Shown: in pieces, positions 46,881-61,009 of the stretch
How positions within the stretch are numbered: the first letter of the stretch is position 1
How the letters are laid out: every line of letters begins with the position of its first letter
NCBI GenBank assembly: GCA_001872575.1
Contig: MNWP01000006.1
Span: forward strand, 20,942 to 84,941
Length of the DNA: 64,000 nt
Direction: 5' to 3'
From: Candidatus Peregrinibacteria bacterium CG1_02_54_53
GTDB lineage: Bacteria > Patescibacteriota > Gracilibacteria > Peribacterales > Peribacteraceae
Made by a program: the position numbers and the translations under genes
Notes under the pieces: generated by a model
The model's input: the letters and a program-made list of their open reading frames with translations, nothing else
What the model was told of the DNA's origin: nothing
The model's database searches: none

Positions 46881-47868
46881 CCGATCCGCCTTCTGGCGCG
46901 ACCGTCCCGTCCTCGTGACGGGAGGGACCGGCTTTGTGGGTTCCTGGCTTGTGGCACGGCTTCTGGAGCTTGGGGCGAACGTGGTCTGTCTGGTGCGCGA
47001 TTGGGTGCCCGAGTCGGAATTGATCCGCTCCGGATCCATCAGACGCGCGACACTGGTCCGCGGCGATCTGTGCGATGCATCACTGCTCGAGCGCACACTG
47101 GCGGAGTATCAGATCGATACGGTTTTCCACCTCGCCGCACAGGCGATCGTGGGCGTGGCGAACAAGAGTCCGGTGCCGACCTTCCACGCCAATATCGAGG
47201 GCACGTGGTTGCTGCTGGAGGCCTGCCGGCGCACGGAGGTGAAGTCCATTGTCATTGCGTCTTCGGACAAGGCCTACGGCGAGCACGACGTTTTGCCCTA
47301 CACCGAGTCGATGGCCCTGCAGGGGCGGCACCCGTACGACGTCAGCAAATCGTGTGCGGATCTGATCGCGCAGAGCTATGCCGTGTCTTTCGCCCTCCCC
47401 GTCGCCATCACGCGGTGTGCCAACTACTTCGGGGGCGGGGACCTGAACTGGAACCGCGTCGTGCCGGGCACGCTTCGATCCCTTCTGCACAATGAGCGTC
47501 CCAGTCTTCGCTCTGACGGCACGTTCGTGCGCGATTACCTGTACGTGGAAGACGGCGTCGAGGCGTATCTGCTTACGGCGGAGAAACTCTCCGTTTCACC
47601 CGACCTCAAAGGACAAGCCTTCAACTTCTCGTACGAAATGCCGCTCTCGGTACTGGATATCGTCCGGAAGATCATTGCCCTGATCGGATCTGACCTGAAG
47701 CCGGATATCCGCAACGAGGCCTCGAATGAAATTCCCCGGCAGTATCTGGATTCATCCAAGGCGCAGAAAGTATTGGGCTGGGCATCGCGCTTTGGATTCG
47801 ACGAAGCGATGCAACGAACCATTCAGTGGTACCGGGAGTACTTCTCACGAAATACTTCTTCGCATTAA
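46867..47868 (+). CDS. rfbG: CDP-glucose 4,6-dehydratase-like SDR
   Basis: [32 protein letters not shown]...[23 protein letters not shown]; follows rfbF. Confidence 0.88.
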
Positions 47869-47872
47869 GCAC

Positions 47873-48892
47873 ATGAAACTCACTCCACAAGTCGTCTTTG
47901 CACAGGCACGCGAACGCAACGCATCCGATGTGCACGTGACGGCGGGGTATCCCATCTTTATCCGCGTCGACGGCGAGCTCGTGCCCTTAAGCGACGAGAA
48001 GATGATGCCCGAGGCTACGGAGGCGTTCGTGCGTGCGGTGCTGGGGCCCGAGGTGTGGAAGCGTTTCGAGCACGACCGCGAGATCGACCTGTCGTTCGCC
48101 GCGGAAGGTGACGGTCGGCTGCGCGTGAACTGCCACTTCGAACGGGGGCAGCCGGGCCTCGTCGCCCGCCTCATTCCCACGCAGGTTCCCTCACTCAACG
48201 CAGTCGGCCTGCAGGGGATTGCAGAACCGCTCTGTGCGCTCTTAGAAGGGCTGATCCTGCTCACGGGTCCCACGGGCTCGGGCAAATCGACCTCGCTTGC
48301 CGCCATGATCCAGCACATCAATACGGAGCGCGCGGCGAGCATCGTCACGCTCGAAGATCCCATCGAGTTTCTCTTCCCCGAAGGCAGGAGCGTCATCCGC
48401 CAGCGCGAGCTGGGTTCCGATTTCACCACCTTTCCCGAGGCGCTGCGGCATGTGCTGCGGCAGGACCCCAACGTGATCATGGTGGGCGAAATGCGCGACC
48501 TTAAGACCGTTGCATCGGTGCTCACGCTCGCTGAGACGGGGCACCTCATCCTCGCGACTCTCCACACGCCCAATACCGTGCAGACCATCGACCGCATCGT
48601 GGATGTCTTCCCCCCGCACCAGCAATCACAGGTGAGGTCGCAGCTCTCGCTCTCGCTCAGGGCCGTGATCGCGCAGAAGCTGGTTCCGTCTTCGAAGGGA
48701 GGGCGCGTAGCGGTACGCGAGATCCTCATGAATACGCCGGCCGTGGCCAATATCATCCGCGATCACCGGCTGCAGGAGCTGCCTTCCGTGCTTCAGACGG
48801 GCGGTGAGCAGGGGATGCGGATGTTCGAAAAAGATGCGGAGCGTCTGGTGAAAGAGGGGATCATCACGAAAGAAGTGGCGAAGGGGATGTAG
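47873..48892 (+). CDS. pilT: PilT-type twitching-motility ATPase
   Basis: ARERNASDVHVTAGYPIFIRVDGEL; LLTGPTGSGKSTSLAAMI; GEMRDLKT. Confidence 0.93.
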   Translation: MKLTPQVVFAQARERNASDVHVTAGYPIFIRVDGELVPLSDEKMMPEATEAFVRAVLGPEVWKRFEHDREIDLSFAAEGDGRLRVNCHFERGQPGLVARLIPTQVPSLNAVGLQGIAEPLCALLEGLILLTGPTGSGKSTSLAAMIQHINTERAASIVTLEDPIEFLFPEGRSVIRQRELGSDFTTFPEALRHVLRQDPNVIMVGEMRDLKTVASVLTLAETGHLILATLHTPNTVQTIDRIVDVFPPHQQSQVRSQLSLSLRAVIAQKLVPSSKGGRVAVREILMNTPAVANIIRDHRLQELPSVLQTGGEQGMRMFEKDAERLVKEGIITKEVAKGM

Positions 48893-50452: not shown

Positions 50453-50655
50453 GGTTCCATTTTCCTGCGATATCTTTGAGTGTCTTTGTTCGTCTGCGAA
50501 GACATTTCTTTCGGATACGTATCTTTGGCTTCACAAAGCCAAAATCAGACGTTCCATACCATCGCAGAACGCCCGCGTTTTCTCATGTCTCCCGCTGGAT
50601 GAAATGCGCAAGGAGCTTTACATAGCCAAAAAGTCGGGTAGAGTGCAGGTTTGGA

Positions 50656-52908
50656 ATGACTGATCTCCCCGCCAGTATCGAGGCGTATCTTACGGATGCG
50701 GGCTTCTCTGCCACCGAGATCCTGGTGCTCAAGAAACTTCTTGAGGGCGAGGCGCTTACATTGCGTGAACTTGCTGCGAAAACAGGTAAATCGACCGGGG
50801 TATTAGATCTTGCAGTGAAGAAACTGCTGCAGCGTCGCATCATCAGTCGCGAGATGGTGAATGACACACCCAAGGTATTGCTCAAGTCGCTCAACGCCGT
50901 TATGCAGTGGATGCAGGATGATACGGAACAGAAACTTAAAGCCATGAAGAGTCGCGCACAAGACTTCGAGTCGTTCATCAATTCTCTCGAGCGGGAGAGT
51001 AGGCGGCCCGGGATGGAACACTTCGAAGGGGAAGAGGGTATCAAGAAGGCGTATCTTAAACTTCTTGATCTTGGCGCGAAGGAGTTTCTGCACTACCGGC
51101 CCATAACAACAAAGGAGGAGGAGGACCCGCTTCGTGATTTTCGTGTGCAGTATTTTCGTGCGCGGTACAAGCGCGGCATCTTTTCCAGAGTGTTGGCGCC
51201 TGAACATTCTCTCGGTCGCAGATTTCAATCGCGAGATCCCTTCGAGTATCGCGAGACGCAGCTGGTGCCCGATGCCGTGTTTCCCATCACGTTCGAGAAG
51301 ATCATCGCCGGCGAGACGGTGGCCTGCTTTAACCATGCGGAACAGCGCGCATGCATTCTTAAATATCCTGAGTTGGCGCAATGTGAGCGAACCGTATTCG
51401 AGCTTCTGTGGCGCCGCGCCAAAGAACCGGCAAGTCAGCCGCAGACGGTAGCGGTGGCTCTTTCGCAAACACCAGAGTCCTTCATCCCTTTGAGCACGCG
51501 ATCGCTCTCAAGCCTGCGGGAGTTCTTTTTGAGTAAGAAGAGTGTGGTGATCTTTCTGATGGGTGCGGTGCTGGCTGCAGGGGTCACGTACGGGCTGTGG
51601 AGGCATACGTACAATCTGAATCGGGAACGAGTTAAGGAGCGGGCCATGGCCATCGCCGCGACGGCTGCCATGGAGTTTGACGTGCGGGATATCGATCAGC
51701 TTCGTACGAAGGAGGATGTAAAGAAGCCGGAATTCATGAAGCTCGTGACGCACCTGCGCGAGATCAAGACGCGCAATGAGAACATCCGATTCGTCTACAT
51801 CGATCGTCCGGCAGAGGCGGAGGGTGCGTCGTGGGAGGTAGTGGCGGATGCCGATTACGGCACGCCGGATGATGATCTGAACGGGGACGGCATCATCGAG
51901 GATTTCGAACAGCTCACCATGCCCGGACAGGTGTATCCGCACGTGGATCCGTTATTTCAAGAGAGGTTACAAAAACCGGCGGCAGATTTTCTCAGTGATG
52001 AATGGGGAGAGTATTGCGATGCATCTGCCCCTATTTTTGATGCTCAGGGCCATGCGGTGGCGGTGCTTTTCGTTGATATCGATCTGCAGCAGGTCCGTGA
52101 TCTTACTTCACAGTCGTTCAAGGTGGTGTATGCCTTCCTTGGCTTATTTCTCCTCTTTGTCTTCATCCGTCTCGCGGCCTTCAATCGGCCGCTTTTCTTT
52201 GAGTTGCTGAAAATTTTTCGGTCCAAGACGGTGCTTTCGGTGCTGGGGCTGTGTGCCGTTATCGCCCTTGGAGTGACGTATGGGATGTATCGGTACACTT
52301 TAGGTTTGATGAAAGAGCAGGTGGGACAGCGGTTGATGGCAATTGCCACAACGGCAGCTGTAGAGATTGATGCGAAAGATCTGGAGCCCCTTCGATTCGC
52401 GCGTGATATGGAGAGATTGGAATACCAGAGGGTATTTAAGAAACTTAATGAGATTCGGGATAGAAACCCCGATAGTCACATTATGTATGCCTATATTTTC
52501 CGGCCAACATCTGATCCCACTCTCTGGGAATTTGTAGCAGATGCAGATTCGAATTATGACATCCCACTCCTGTCGGGGGATCATAATGGCGACGGAGTGA
52601 TGGATGAGGGGGACGAGAATATTTGGCCTGGAGTGATCTATTATGCAGGAGGGCAAAAATTCGTTACTGAGGGCCTAAAGAAGCCCATGGTCGAAGACTT
52701 TGCCAGTGATCAATGGGGAACGTTTTTGACAGGAGATGCCCCAATTCGTGATGAAAATGGAGATGCAGTTGCCATCCTAGGGTTGGACATGAATGTTACT
52801 GATTTATATCGTGAGGTGAAAAGTAAATATGATCCATACATGTGGTTCTTTTCGGTCTTCGGAGTTCTGATGATTGTGGGAGTGGGTTTTTCTTTTAGGA
52901 AACGGTGA
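50656..52908 (+). CDS. TrmB-like HTH regulator fused to two membrane-embedded extracytoplasmic sensor domains
   Basis: N-term ...LTDAGFSATEILVLKKLLEGEALTLRELAAKTGKSTGVLDLAVKKLLQRRII; TM VVIFLMGAVLAAGVTYGLW, sensor 1, TM AFLGLFLLFVFI, TM TVLSVLGLCAVIALGVTYGMY, sensor 2, C-term TM. Confidence 0.8.
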   Translation: MTDLPASIEAYLTDAGFSATEILVLKKLLEGEALTLRELAAKTGKSTGVLDLAVKKLLQRRIISREMVNDTPKVLLKSLNAVMQWMQDDTEQKLKAMKSRAQDFESFINSLERESRRPGMEHFEGEEGIKKAYLKLLDLGAKEFLHYRPITTKEEEDPLRDFRVQYFRARYKRGIFSRVLAPEHSLGRRFQSRDPFEYRETQLVPDAVFPITFEKIIAGETVACFNHAEQRACILKYPELAQCERTVFELLWRRAKEPASQPQTVAVALSQTPESFIPLSTRSLSSLREFFLSKKSVVIFLMGAVLAAGVTYGLWRHTYNLNRERVKERAMAIAATAAMEFDVRDIDQLRTKEDVKKPEFMKLVTHLREIKTRNENIRFVYIDRPAEAEGASWEVVADADYGTPDDDLNGDGIIEDFEQLTMPGQVYPHVDPLFQERLQKPAADFLSDEWGEYCDASAPIFDAQGHAVAVLFVDIDLQQVRDLTSQSFKVVYAFLGLFLLFVFIRLAAFNRPLFFELLKIFRSKTVLSVLGLCAVIALGVTYGMYRYTLGLMKEQVGQRLMAIATTAAVEIDAKDLEPLRFARDMERLEYQRVFKKLNEIRDRNPDSHIMYAYIFRPTSDPTLWEFVADADSNYDIPLLSGDHNGDGVMDEGDENIWPGVIYYAGGQKFVTEGLKKPMVEDFASDQWGTFLTGDAPIRDENGDAVAILGLDMNVTDLYREVKSKYDPYMWFFSVFGVLMIVGVGFSFRKR

Positions 52909-53019
52909 GAGAAGATTGTGTTGTATTGGTGGCTTGAAGGAGTTTTTGTAGTACTTATCATAATATTGATTCTTTTTCAGGTTCTGCTATTCCGTAGAAA
53001 AGTATCCGTGAGGCAGTAA

Positions 53020-53412
53020 CTAGCCCCTCTTAATTTTCGTCACTCGAAGTTTTTTCGAGCCAAATACCTTTGCGAGATATTTAAATCCGATAGTGTGTCG
53101 CATTTTTCCACAAGAAAACAAATCGACGGCTGCGTATTGATATTCAGGCCATGTATGAATGGCGAAGTGGGACTCTTTGATGACAACCACGCCTGAAAGG
53201 CCATACGGATTAAATTTATGGAACAGTGATTGCACCACATGAGCACCCATCAGTTGAGCTGCTTTTTGCATGTGAATCTGCAATGATTTCAGGTTGTCAG
53301 GGAGTGTCGAGCAATTCGCGAACTCCCCCAGTATCAGATATCCCGGACGGTGCTCCAACGGGCGAAGGGTCGTTCCTTTTGGCCGTTTACTTGCGGAGCG
53401 CTTCTTATGCAC
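53020..53412 (-). CDS. speD: S-adenosylmethionine decarboxylase proenzyme
   Basis: [32 protein letters not shown] processing site and HTWPE motif; GTG start. Confidence 0.95.
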
Positions 53413-53463
53413 TAAAGTTAAGAATACATTTCAAATTCACCATTGTAAAGTTACATTATTACC

Positions 53464-54150
53464 GTGATTGCAATTATTGCACCCATGCAGGAAGAACTGG
53501 AGGAGTATCTCAAGAATATTCCGCATCTTGTTCATAGTGATCTTCTGAATACTATTTCGTATAAAGGGGAATGGAAGGGCAGGCCTTTGATCGTTGTGAA
53601 GTCCGGTGTTGGCAAAGTCAATGCCGCAATGGCAACCCAATATTTAATCAGCCATTTTCCTCTCAGTGCGGTGATCAGTCAGGGGGTGGCCGGTGCGGTG
53701 CATCCGGCGTTGAATATCGGGGATATTGTCCTTGGAGAGAGTCACGTGCAACACGATCTTAATGTGACTGCTCTTGGATTTCGCAAAGGAGAGATACCTT
53801 ACTCTGCAGTGCATGATTTTCCGGGGGACCCCGTTCTGCTCGAAAAAGCGAAAAAGGCGTGTGAGAAATTGGGTTTTTCATACATGGCTGGCCGGATTAT
53901 TTCCGGCGATCAATTTATTTCTGACTCCGAGACTATCCGGCAACTGAGCCGGGAATTTTCCGCTCATGCGGTGGATATGGAAATGGCAGCCATTGCGCAG
54001 GTTTGCCATATCAATCGGATGCCATTTTTGAGTGCAAAGGCTATTTCTGATCGCGCGGACCGGATGGCTCATACAGATTTTCCTAAATTTTTGCAAAGCT
54101 CAGCAAAAAAATCATTTCAGCTCGTAGAAGAGCTGCTATCTAGTTTATGA
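53464..54150 (+). CDS. mtnN: 5'-methylthioadenosine/S-adenosylhomocysteine nucleosidase
   Basis: IAIIAPMQEELEEYL...SQGVAGAVHPALNIGDIVLGE...AVDMEMAAIAQV...AISDRAD. Confidence 0.92.
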   Translation: MIAIIAPMQEELEEYLKNIPHLVHSDLLNTISYKGEWKGRPLIVVKSGVGKVNAAMATQYLISHFPLSAVISQGVAGAVHPALNIGDIVLGESHVQHDLNVTALGFRKGEIPYSAVHDFPGDPVLLEKAKKACEKLGFSYMAGRIISGDQFISDSETIRQLSREFSAHAVDMEMAAIAQVCHINRMPFLSAKAISDRADRMAHTDFPKFLQSSAKKSFQLVEELLSSL

Positions 54151-54685
54151 GATCACCCTCGTTGAATTGTACCAATGAGAAAATATCGTAGTTCTTGAGA
54201 TTTGATCTCCCCGGGAGGTAGAGCAATTCCGCAAGAAAGGACATCGACACGATTTTTCCTCCCTGTTTCTCCACCAGCTGGGCACATGCCTTGGCAGTTC
54301 CACCTGTTGCCAGTATATCGTCGACAAAGAGCACTTGATCACCCGGGCTGATTGCATCCCGGTGCATTTCAATTGAATCCGTTCCATATTCCAGAGCATA
54401 TGTTTGCTTTACTACTTCATAAGGTAATTTGCCCGGTTTTCGAATGGGAACAAAACCAACACCCAATTCTTTTGCAAGTGCGCATCCAAACATGAATCCG
54501 CGTGATTCCGGAGCCACCACCTTGTCGATTTTCAGTCCACTCGTAATGTAATGTAACTTTGTTTTGTCGAAGATTGATGCCAGTGTTTTATGATCGAGTA
54601 AGAGCGGTGTGACATCCCAAAATGTAATGCCTTCTTTTGGAAAGTTTTGAATTTTCCTAAAATGCGATTTAAGTATATTTCCCAT
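54140..54685 (-). CDS. apt: Adenine phosphoribosyltransferase
   Basis: NFPKEGITFWDVTPLL; ESRGFMFG; VLFVDDILATGGTAKA PRPP motif; start MGNILKSH overlaps speE. Confidence 0.94.
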   Translation of the reverse strand: MGNILKSHFRKIQNFPKEGITFWDVTPLLLDHKTLASIFDKTKLHYITSGLKIDKVVAPESRGFMFGCALAKELGVGFVPIRKPGKLPYEVVKQTYALEYGTDSIEMHRDAISPGDQVLFVDDILATGGTAKACAQLVEKQGGKIVSMSFLAELLYLPGRSNLKNYDIFSLVQFNEGDLIN

Positions 54686-55514
54686 ATAATTGATTGTGGA
54701 GAAATTCAGGTAGTTGGAAACAGGCAGTATGAATTTTTGCATTGTAATATTTACATGTAATTTCTTTCGATGGACCACCACGTTGTCGTTTCTTCAGTGA
54801 TATTGCTTCAGAGGAAGCTAGTGCAAACGACCAGCATCCAGACTGATACATAGGAACATAAGCAAGATAGTGGTGAACATGGTTAAATGTCGATTTCAAT
54901 GCTTTATCGATCTTATTAACAATCCCCTTTTCACAGAAAGGCGTTGACCCAATTGTACAAAAAATGCCATCCTGCTTTAGGCATTTTTTTGCTAGATCGT
55001 AAAATTCTCCAGTAAATAGGGCAGCAGCTGGACCTGTTGGATCGGTTGAGTCATTGATGATTACGTCATAAACATGTTTGTCGGATTTTCTGAGGAAATC
55101 CAATCCATCTTGAAAATAAACTCGTACGCGTCGATTTTCAAATGATCTTTTTGCGAAAGGAAAGAAATGCTTCGAGATTTCGATGACATCTTTGTCAAAT
55201 TCGCATAAACTTATTTGATTCACCATTCGATGCTTTAAGCCTTCCCTAACACTGCCGCCATCTCCCCCTCCAATTATTAATAAATTGCGGGGTTTTCTAT
55301 GAGAAAAAAGTGGTATGTGTACAAGCATTTCATGATATGGAAATTCAAATCGTTCTGAGAGCATCAATAAGCCGTCAATAACCAACAATTTCCCGTTCTC
55401 TTTTGAATCAAAGACTTCGATTGTTTGGGATTTGCTGGTCTTTTTGAAAATTCTTCTGGCTTCATAGCAGTATTTTGTCCCGGGAGATTGCTTTTCGCAG
55501 TACCAGCTTTTCAT
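54669..55514 (-). CDS. speE: Spermidine synthase
   Basis: YHEMLVHIPLFSHRKPRNLLIIGGGDGGSVREGLKH...DVIINDSTDPTGPA. Confidence 0.94.
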   Translation of the reverse strand: MKSWYCEKQSPGTKYCYEARRIFKKTSKSQTIEVFDSKENGKLLVIDGLLMLSERFEFPYHEMLVHIPLFSHRKPRNLLIIGGGDGGSVREGLKHRMVNQISLCEFDKDVIEISKHFFPFAKRSFENRRVRVYFQDGLDFLRKSDKHVYDVIINDSTDPTGPAAALFTGEFYDLAKKCLKQDGIFCTIGSTPFCEKGIVNKIDKALKSTFNHVHHYLAYVPMYQSGCWSFALASSEAISLKKRQRGGPSKEITCKYYNAKIHTACFQLPEFLHNQLYGKYT

Positions 55515-55553
55515 CTTGGCAAGAATACCCTATTGGGTTATACTTTTGGAGGT

Positions 55554-55991
55554 ATGTTTTTGAAAAGCACGATCTGGAGTCTTATCTTATCTTTTGCACT
55601 AATTTTAGTGGCCGCTGTGGGAGTGGTAGCATTTAGATGGAAAGTTAATTCAGATCAGGTCTTGGCCTATAAAGAGCAACGTGATTTCGACCGCTTAACC
55701 CATGTGAATACGCTTGCTAGTGCTGTGCGGGAGTATATGACTGAGTATAATGGAAAACAGCCAGGCTTGATTAGTAATGAACCAAAGTACATTTGCCGCT
55801 CCGATTTATTTGATAATTGTGAAGATTTGGTTGACCTGCGGCCACTCCTAAGTTCATTTATTATTGCGATTCCTTCTGATCCGACCGCAGAAGTTGGCCC
55901 GAATACACATTATTTAATAGAAATTGAGGATGGGAAGGTGGTGGTTTCTGCACCAGAAGCTGAAACCGAAGAAATTCTTGCGACTAGGTGA
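55554..55991 (+). CDS. Membrane-anchored pilin-like hypothetical protein
   Basis: N-terminal TM then soluble domain; IPSDPTAEVG..THYLIEIEDGKVVVSAPEAE typical of prepilin-like C-termini. Confidence 0.5.
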   Translation: MFLKSTIWSLILSFALILVAAVGVVAFRWKVNSDQVLAYKEQRDFDRLTHVNTLASAVREYMTEYNGKQPGLISNEPKYICRSDLFDNCEDLVDLRPLLSSFIIAIPSDPTAEVGPNTHYLIEIEDGKVVVSAPEAETEEILATR

Positions 55992-56021
55992 GAGAGTGTG
56001 TTTGTGGTATAATTCTATGTT

Positions 56022-57491
56022 GTGAGACAAATAATAAAAAGCATTGTTGGGTGGGCAAACGAGTTTGGGAAAAGCTACCTTCTACTTGGGCTAAGTGCTG
56101 CATTCGCATGCGGTATTGGTTACGCCCTTTTTGCATATACACAAAATATTCTACTCGAACGACTTCGCGAAAAACTAATTACTATAAGTACTACAGCCTC
56201 TTTGCTCTTTGATGAACAAGAAATAAGCGAATTGATCGAGGAAGGGGAAAAGAGTGTGAACACAGATCTGTATCGTAAAGCGGTCTTGAACTTGAGAAGG
56301 ATCAAAAGACGTAATCCAGATATTAGATATGCTTACATATTTGCAAAAACTAAAAGGCCGGAATCAGTTTCTTTTGTGGCAGATGCGGACATGATTGCGC
56401 TCCGATCTAATCTTAATTACACGGGGGATGAAATAGACGAAGGTGATTGGGTAGGGTCTCAATACGATACAGATGAATCGTCCGCATTAAATGAGGGCTT
56501 TGCTTTCAAAGAGGCAACAACAGATCAAGATTTCTCTGATACATCGGAGGATTGGGGAACCGTATATTCGAGTTATGCACCTATCCGTAACCATCCGAAG
56601 GCAGTTTCAGATGCTGTTTTAGGTGTGGATGTCGATGTGACTTCTTACCTGAGTTTTGTAAATGCAACCCTGATTCCATTTGTAGTGGCTGTCGTTTTTC
56701 TTCTGTTGTTATTGGCTCTGCTCACACTATCTTTGGTTCGAATGTGGGGTTCAAAAGTCGACCTTCTCAAAGACCTCGATCGCCAGAAAGACGAACTCAT
56801 CAGTATCGTCAGCCATCAACTTGCAACACCGGTAACCTCAGTAAAGTGGTACATCGAGATGCTGCTGGACGGAGATTCCGGAGAGCTCACCGAGGAGCAG
56901 AAGAAGCAGCTCATGACCATGCAGGGAGTGACGGCTGACCTTGTAGACCTCGTGGGCATGATCTTGGATGTCTCGCGCATTCAGTTGGGTCGTATGAAGG
57001 TGGATCGTGGCGACCTTGATCTTGGCACTTTCTTCACTGAAGTGTTGGCGGTGATCGAGCCCAAGGCCACAGTCAAGAAGCAGCAGTTCATCAAGTCGTT
57101 GCCCAAGACTTTGCCCACAGCTTCTCTCGATAAGCGCCTGATGCGTATGACACTCGAAAACCTGCTCAGTAACGCCGTCAAATACACACCGGAGGGCGGC
57201 CAAGTGGAGCTGAATGTTTCGTTCACAGACCACACACTGTGCTACGAGGTGAAAGACACGGGTTGCGGAATCCCCAAGGAGGATCAGGAAAAGATCTTCG
57301 GCAAGCTCTTCAGGGCCACCAACGTGCGCAATACGGAAGGCAACGGTCTTGGACTCTTCGCCGCCAAGGGTGCCGCCGAGGCACAGGGTGGCAAGGTGTG
57401 GTTCACAAGTGAGTCGGGCAAGGGCACCACGTTCTACGTGGAGGTGCCACTCACAGAGGCGAAAGGGGCTGAAAAAAGTGAGGCACAATAA
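56022..57491 (+). CDS. Membrane sensor histidine kinase
   Basis: LISIVSHQLATPVTSVKWYIEMLLDGDSGEL (HisKA); NLLSNAVKYTPEGG, DTGCGIPKEDQEKIFGKLFRA, GNGLGLFAAKGA. Confidence 0.95.
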   Translation: MRQIIKSIVGWANEFGKSYLLLGLSAAFACGIGYALFAYTQNILLERLREKLITISTTASLLFDEQEISELIEEGEKSVNTDLYRKAVLNLRRIKRRNPDIRYAYIFAKTKRPESVSFVADADMIALRSNLNYTGDEIDEGDWVGSQYDTDESSALNEGFAFKEATTDQDFSDTSEDWGTVYSSYAPIRNHPKAVSDAVLGVDVDVTSYLSFVNATLIPFVVAVVFLLLLLALLTLSLVRMWGSKVDLLKDLDRQKDELISIVSHQLATPVTSVKWYIEMLLDGDSGELTEEQKKQLMTMQGVTADLVDLVGMILDVSRIQLGRMKVDRGDLDLGTFFTEVLAVIEPKATVKKQQFIKSLPKTLPTASLDKRLMRMTLENLLSNAVKYTPEGGQVELNVSFTDHTLCYEVKDTGCGIPKEDQEKIFGKLFRATNVRNTEGNGLGLFAAKGAAEAQGGKVWFTSESGKGTTFYVEVPLTEAKGAEKSEAQ

Positions 57492-60201: not shown

Positions 60202-60870
60202 CTAGTGAGCCTCTTCCATCAGGCGTGCAACGTTCTCTTCGAGCATCGTGAGGAGCAGGCGGTAGGCCTCGAGGTGTCGGCTTTGGCGCAATTCCTCGCG
60301 CTCAAGGAGTGACAGATAGAGTGCAGAGGTTTCGTTGAAGAGTGCCTGCCGGTATGCGGGAGCGCAGAAGTGCGCGGTTTCGAGATTATGCAGCCGGTCG
60401 GCCATCTTGATATGCAGCACGTAGGGGATGAGCGTATTGGCCTCGACCATTTGAGCGAGGTAGTCGCGCTCATGATCGTCGATAGACACACCCTTCGGCC
60501 GCTTGGGCCGCGTGAGCGCATCCACGGCAGCTTCCACTTCATTGCCGAATGTTGCGCGGATCTGCGGGAGCGTTGCCTTTCCATCCTCCACCGTATCGTG
60601 CAGCAGCGCAGCGACGTACGCTCCATAGGGTAGCTTCATACTCACGGACCGCAGGATCTGCAGCACGGCCAGCGGGTGGCTGAGGTATGCACGGCCATCC
60701 GCTCTCTTCTGCCCCGCGTGCGCACTGCGGGCGAAGGTGATGGCATCACGGAGGGTGAAGTAGTCACTGAGGGTGAGTGGAGCAGCAGGAGGGCACACAG
60801 GCGCCAGAGGATCCAAGTGGCACGCGACGATCGTGCAGGTTTCAGGCCGATGATGGAAGGTGGTTGCCAA
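60202..60870 (-). CDS. HD-domain phosphohydrolase (RelA/SpoT-HD-like)
   Basis: FARSAHAGQKRADGRAYLSHPLAVLQIL...AALLHDTVEDGKATL. Confidence 0.88.
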   Translation of the reverse strand: MATTFHHRPETCTIVACHLDPLAPVCPPAAPLTLSDYFTLRDAITFARSAHAGQKRADGRAYLSHPLAVLQILRSVSMKLPYGAYVAALLHDTVEDGKATLPQIRATFGNEVEAAVDALTRPKRPKGVSIDDHERDYLAQMVEANTLIPYVLHIKMADRLHNLETAHFCAPAYRQALFNETSALYLSLLEREELRQSRHLEAYRLLLTMLEENVARLMEEAH

Positions 60871-61009
60871 GTTGCTCAGTATGAATTCCCCGAAGGGGCG
60901 TGCATACTAGCGTCCTAAAAAATGAAATCGAGCAACTTTGGTTTACGGCTTGTTTAAGCCACCATACTTGCTCAAAAGGGCGTTCTGGGTGGTGGTGGAA
61001 CGTGGGTGA

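Follow-up and report, generated by a model that had tools for sequence, protein, structure and literature searches.

The window, by which we mean the whole stretch of 64,000 nucleotides analysed from contig MNWP01000006.1 of Candidatus Peregrinibacteria bacterium CG1_02_54_53 (Peribacteraceae, a family of tiny, uncultured bacteria), carries a single uninterrupted frame at 50656–52908 of the plus strand, running from an ATG to a TGA and encoding a protein of 750 amino acids (Table 1). The AlphaFold2 model of this protein (mean pLDDT 86.3, 38 sequences) comprises a winged helix-turn-helix (wHTH; residues 1–76), a long helix (79–115), an alpha/beta domain (119–256), a disordered linker (approximately 260–275), and two alpha/beta sensors, each anchored by transmembrane (TM) segments. 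Hydropathy places the four TM segments at residues 296–314, 490–508, 526–544, and 729–747, with flanks rich in lysine and arginine predicted to be cytosolic, and a domain search of the protein found no kinase or enzymatic output domain. A reading made earlier from the sequence alone had described a TM-sensor-TM-TM-sensor-TM arrangement devoid of such an output, and hence a membrane-bound one-component regulator; hydropathy, the model, and the domain search agree with the arrangement, and the one-component layout holds as a prediction, with a cytosolic DNA-binding domain, TM segments, and extracytoplasmic sensors in one chain that lacks a kinase. The concern raised there, that the frame might be an assembly fusion of two genes, can be set aside because orthologues of the same full length occur in many independent assemblies. 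An Rfam search at the regulator locus gave no match.

Table 1. Features of the regulator locus, in window coordinates.
Feature	Position	Strand	Basis
TrmB-type regulator with two tandem Cache sensors, 750 aa	50656..52908	+	Frame, AF2 model, Foldseek, orthologues
Winged helix-turn-helix, TrmB-like, residues 1-76	50656..50883	+	Pfam TrmB 18.4 bits (below 25.6), orthologue 28.0; Foldseek TrmBL2
PLD-like alpha/beta domain of TrmB half, residues 119-256	51010..51423	+	AF2 model; Foldseek TrmBL2, PLD3; common to soluble paralogues L004-L006
TM1	51541..51597	+	Hydropathy
Predicted extracytoplasmic Cache sensor 1	51598..52122	+	AF2; Foldseek KinD/CitA/chemoreceptors
EF-hand-like loop 1, DLNGDGIIEDFE, residues 407-418	51874..51909	+	Sequence; conservation
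TM2	52123..52179	+	Hydropathy
TM3	52231..52287	+	Hydropathy
Predicted extracytoplasmic Cache sensor 2	52288..52839	+	AF2; GC 0.467 vs 0.539 in remaining gene
EF-hand-like loop 2, DHNGDGVMDEGDE	52579..52617	+	Sequence; conservation
TM4	52840..52896	+	Hydropathy
Palindrome P1, GTTCCATACCATCGCAGAAC	50551..50570	.	105 bp 5' of regulator start codon
Palindrome P2, TTGGCTTCACAAAGCCAA	50525..50542	.	26 bp (start to start) upstream of P1
PilT-like ATPase (type IV pilus retraction), conserved upstream neighbour	47726..48892	+	Name from sequence inspection; synteny 21/43 loci
speD, adenosylmethionine decarboxylase	53020..53412	-	NCBIfam TIGR03330
mtnN, MTA/SAH nucleosidase	53464..54150	+	NCBIfam TIGR01704
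apt, adenine phosphoribosyltransferase	54140..54781	-	NCBIfam TIGR01090
speE, spermidine synthase	54669..55514	-	NCBIfam TIGR00417
Histidine kinase (HisKA, HATPase_c) with related extracytoplasmic sensor	56022..57491	+	

The cytosolic half had been taken for a TrmB-type helix-turn-helix protein, and comparisons of both structure and sequence support this. In a Foldseek search against the PDB, archaeal TrmBL2 was the top match (E 1.4e-9, approximately 270 columns), and PLD-like enzymes ranked after it as matches of the alpha/beta domain, whose likeness to TrmBL2 and PLD-like folds is one of structure only. TM-scores between the window model and TrmBL2 are modest (0.35–0.44, by target length), a result to which a different orientation of the two domains probably contributes. 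The Pfam TrmB model (PF01978) scores the window protein at 18.4 bits against a cut-off of 25.6, and the orthologue L042:8635- exceeds that cut-off at 28.0 bits. With the TrmB family (archaeal TrmB and TrmBL2; reviewed in PMC4158304), the protein shares a wHTH followed by a C-terminal alpha/beta domain, and an orthologue has the Pfam TrmB match. It differs in being bacterial and membrane-anchored, with four predicted TM segments and extracytoplasmic sensors; the TrmB effector domain (PF11495) gave no match in the window protein even at E values up to 10, and there is no evidence of sugar sensing. The same genome encodes three soluble TrmB-like paralogues, which have either the entire half or its second domain in common with the window protein. 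TrmB regulators had been described as normally soluble and as largely archaeal, and the latter misleads here because soluble TrmB-like proteins are common in this bacterial phylum; a literature search for TrmB in CPR bacteria gave nothing, which is weak evidence of absence.

Both sensors are predicted to adopt a Cache/PDC fold, in which an N-terminal helix and a beta-sheet ligand module lie between two TM helices. Foldseek matched them, with E values down to 5e-5, to KinD, CitA, and the chemoreceptor Cache domains of PctA and Tlp3, among which are sensors of amino acids, histamine, and carboxylates, so that the suggestion of Cache-like domains was borne out by structure prediction. They differ from these known Cache sensors in that Pfam Cache models hardly recognise them (no model matches more than 2 of 17 members, and the best E is 0.0011), in carrying a conserved EF-hand-like loop before a PG..Y motif, and in being borne here by a kinase as well as by a regulator; sequence-only searches of the PDB found no credible relative of the sensors. 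The EF-hand-like loops noticed in the original sequence are near-canonical and conserved throughout the family: 91 of the 108 distinct related sensors contain D-x-[DNS]-x-[DNS]-[GA], and the background rate in the remaining ORFs at these loci is 0.044 per 205 aa. These 12-residue loops are of the D-x-N-x-D-G-x-I type, with typical forms such as DLNGDGIIDEAD followed by PG..Y, and both loops of the window protein, the second being DHNGDGVMDEGD(E) with residue 642 as its first, fit D-x-[DN]-x-[DN]-G with an acidic residue at position 12. Binding of Ca2+ is plausible, and the loop could be structural or bind something else. A literature search for Ca2+-binding Cache sensors returned no paper, again weak evidence of absence.

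A scan of 84,980 species genomes, which searched with short conserved peptides and may overlook distant relatives, yielded 39 loci, 37 of them in genomes titled Peregrinibacteria or Peribacteria and two in genomes titled just 'bacterium'. In a profile search covering 380 genomes from the phylum, the fusion of TrmB half and sensors was confined to Peribacteraceae, an absence elsewhere that is weakened by the incompleteness of metagenome-assembled genomes; outside the family, the N-terminal half matched frames of approximately 250–400 aa. By number of sensors, the complete relatives divide into 21 with two, 16 with one, 3 with three, and 4 without any. Of these last four, one is a soluble 293-aa form (L102), one has about seven TM segments in place of Cache sensors, and the other two are frameshifted or close to the end of a contig. 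L080:12441-14087 is a paralogue in which the same TrmB half is joined to about seven TM segments and Cache sensors are absent, and at L049 and L073 TrmB-sensor genes stand in tandem, two or three together.

Conservation is uneven along the chain. Among 20 two-sensor proteins, mean identity is 57.6% in the N-terminal half vs. 41% in the sensors, and individual pairs depart from this average in different ways. The N-terminal halves of L066 and L068 are 95% identical and their first sensors 43%; L066 and L069 share 96% in the N-terminal half, 92% in the first sensor, and 53% in the second; and the corresponding values for the window protein and G003 are 85, 90, and 36%. Between the window protein and L067, which belongs to another genus, the first sensors (78%) are more alike than the N-terminal halves (62%). 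The sensors therefore look like exchangeable cassettes, swapped between species on a DNA-binding half that is kept constant. Local GC content falls from approximately 0.54 to 0.40 inside the second sensor of the window gene, stays mostly low across the polyamine genes and the kinase sensor, and recovers in the kinase domain. This low-GC stretch (window positions 52300–56700) begins within the regulator's second sensor and stops at the junction of kinase sensor and kinase, and it is possible that it represents an imported or exchanged block. The idea that sensors travel together with polyamine genes was dropped, as the second sensor of L066 is 77% similar, yet the polyamine cargo is absent there.

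Across 43 loci, recurrent neighbours of the regulator are ligA (29), a histidine kinase with a conserved catalytic part (29), a PilT-like gene (21), and an EamA transporter (14), counts that are lower bounds because of contig ends. In the window, the kinase lies 3 kb downstream and has a sensor of the same type as the regulator (37%), with speD, mtnN, apt, and speE between the two genes, a position that polyamine-synthesis genes also occupy in some relatives. The loci of relatives include agmatinase, 1,9-bis(guanidino)-5-aza-nonane (BGN) synthase or another deoxyhypusine-synthase homologue, homologues of AdoMet decarboxylase, and an EamA gene; one SpeD homologue from Peribacteria has proved to be an ornithine decarboxylase (PMC10407285). 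A SET-domain protein recurs between regulator and kinase (L042:11871-12389, L067, and L079:6654-7142). Two kinases (L066:13929-15617 and L069:14222-15874) are more than 90% identical to the window kinase in the catalytic part and have a different, non-Cache N-terminal part.

New here is a palindrome in the regulator promoters, P1 (GTTCYR-N8-YRGAAC), that is shared with comEC. It is accompanied by a second palindrome, P2 (TTGGCTT-N4-AAGCCAA), at a start-to-start spacing of 26 bp in the window and close relatives and of approximately 27 bp, in reversed order, in several more. The window genome contains 12 copies of P1 (backwards control, 0), and the mean per genome is 8.6 in 35 family members (control, 1.3) vs. 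0.6 in 23 genomes from other families of the class (control, 0.9). With one mismatch allowed, P1 lies upstream of 29 of 50 regulators and of comEC in 17 of 22 cases within the family vs. 0 of 7 outside it; no copy was found upstream of ligA (0/29), the kinase (0/30), or pilT (0/20), 0/79 in all, and it precedes EamA in 3/14, dprA in 3/19, and recA in 2/19, all of these being counts over orthologues that share descent and hence are not independent trials. Other genes behind P1 encode a ComF-like phosphoribosyltransferase, ssb, a PIF1-like helicase, LTD proteins, RNase Y, an HD protein, a Fic protein, and a GIY-YIG protein; an identification of the LTD-neighbour gene as RmuC was rejected, since Pfam assigns it to RNase Y. 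P1 is not favoured as an SOS box, given that just 2 of 19 recA genes carry it. The palindrome was found after many upstream regions had been viewed, and the main safeguard is the comEC result, which comes from a separate locus with negative controls.

The P1 site at comEC falls, in most genomes, within the 3' end of the upstream ksgA, and it was considered whether the site is a by-product of ksgA coding. Inspection of the codons, which was done by eye on rows partly chosen with a motif filter, speaks against this: a G precedes the Phe codon, and although the residue varies among Met, Leu, Ala, and Val, TTC and YR-GAA-C are retained. The Phe is absent from genomes that lack P1, and in G024 and G017 the site lies outside called ORFs at a similar distance. 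Because the bases are kept despite residue changes and the site can lie outside ORFs, constraint at the DNA level seems likelier than a coding by-product.

We read the window protein as a transmembrane one-component transcriptional regulator of Peribacteraceae, in which a TrmB-type half is joined to Cache sensors, acting in or with the DNA-uptake programme (probability roughly 0.6). The cytosolic wHTH and PLD-like domain would dimerise and bind DNA while anchored in the membrane, the two Cache sensors outside, each with its EF-hand-like loop, would bind a ligand and/or Ca2+, and a change in the sensors would reach the DNA-binding dimer via the TM helices. DNA uptake is brought in because P1 is common to the regulator and comEC and because a PilT-like gene is a neighbour; the regulator would work within or alongside the DNA-uptake/type IV pilus programme and the neighbouring polyamine and transport genes, and different sensors would feed different signals into one regulon. 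Whether the regulator itself recognises P1 is a separate matter, on which presence and absence across genomes gave no support: P1 stands at comEC in several family genomes that lack the regulator (G002, G010, G014, and G022), and G030 has the regulator and lacks P1. As P1 does not track the regulator, the latter may not be its binder, and the pattern argues that another factor can at least bind P1. The regulator could then be a target of the palindrome regulon and not itself a regulator of DNA uptake, which we hold to have slightly less than an even chance; set against it are two points, that no genes carry P1 more regularly than comEC and the regulator, and that a regulator co-expressed with the DNA-uptake genes, and adjoining a PilT-like gene, is likely to belong to the same programme. 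Much less probable is a membrane DNA tether, an architectural protein that holds DNA and does not switch promoters. TrmBL2, the closest structural match, is an archaeal chromatin protein, but its fold is common to the TrmB regulators as well, and the conserved promoter site, the variable sensors, and the single-locus arrangement look regulatory; we regard a tether as highly improbable.

What the sensors of the proposed regulator detect can be read in more than one way. They might respond to an amine or another small organic ligand, for instance polyamines made or exported by the neighbours, with the loop holding structural Ca2+ only. Small organic ligands are usual for Cache folds, the Foldseek matches to amino-acid, histamine, and carboxylate sensors agree with this, and polyamine genes lie beside the regulator, or beside the kinase that shares its sensor type, in the window and in relatives, with agmatinase, BGN synthase, and the EamA exporter among them; such genes, however, occur at the locus in a minority of family genomes (approximately 8), a ligand-specific pocket would be expected to vary more than the loop does, and the sensors are freely swapped, so that we hold this reading tentatively, at around one chance in three. 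That Ca2+ is itself the signal, its binding to the sensor loops switching DNA binding, is prompted by the frequency of near-canonical loops noted above, but a motif cannot separate structural from regulatory Ca2+, and retention of the loop in the shared kinase sensors and in swapped sensors also fits a structural role; we consider it unlikely. A bolder proposal joins these strands: through exchangeable Ca2+-loop Cache cassettes and the GTTCYR-N8-YRGAAC site, the regulator would control the timing of DNA uptake in Peribacteraceae, and the same uptake would swap its sensors between species, re-wiring the input while the regulon stays fixed. This we regard as doubtful, and put it forward as speculation.

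To our knowledge, almost nothing is known of signal transduction and the regulation of DNA uptake in Patescibacteria (CPR), which would gain a concrete, testable regulator and a candidate binding site common to comEC. The layout of a cytosolic HTH, TM segment, and extracytoplasmic sensor with no kinase output is that of the transmembrane one-component regulators CadC and ToxR/TcpP (comparable layout for CadC/ToxR, PMC7593790), TfoS and ChiS, and archaeal ArnR; the window protein differs from all of these in its TrmB-type DNA-binding half and in its tandem TM-Cache-TM units, whose number varies. In Vibrio cholerae, natural transformation is under the control of the membrane-anchored regulators TfoS and ChiS (PMC11856585), and ComEC-mediated DNA uptake has been shown in Saccharibacteria (PMC10633639). 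The TrmB family would gain a membrane-anchored architecture, and the apparent exchange of sensor domains on a constant DNA-binding half would be a clear natural case of its kind.

Some further copies of P1 may be recorded. A second one in the window (60982–61001) lies upstream of an HD_4-domain gene (60202–60870, minus strand), as it does for the HD_4 gene of G015 (L140). G028 has 30 copies, many with near-identical spacers of the CACCCCTA type, and these may be a repeat family and not independent sites. In G034 and G017, P1 is found near small proteins that resemble four-helix-bundle (S23-type) proteins (L146, L147, and L130).
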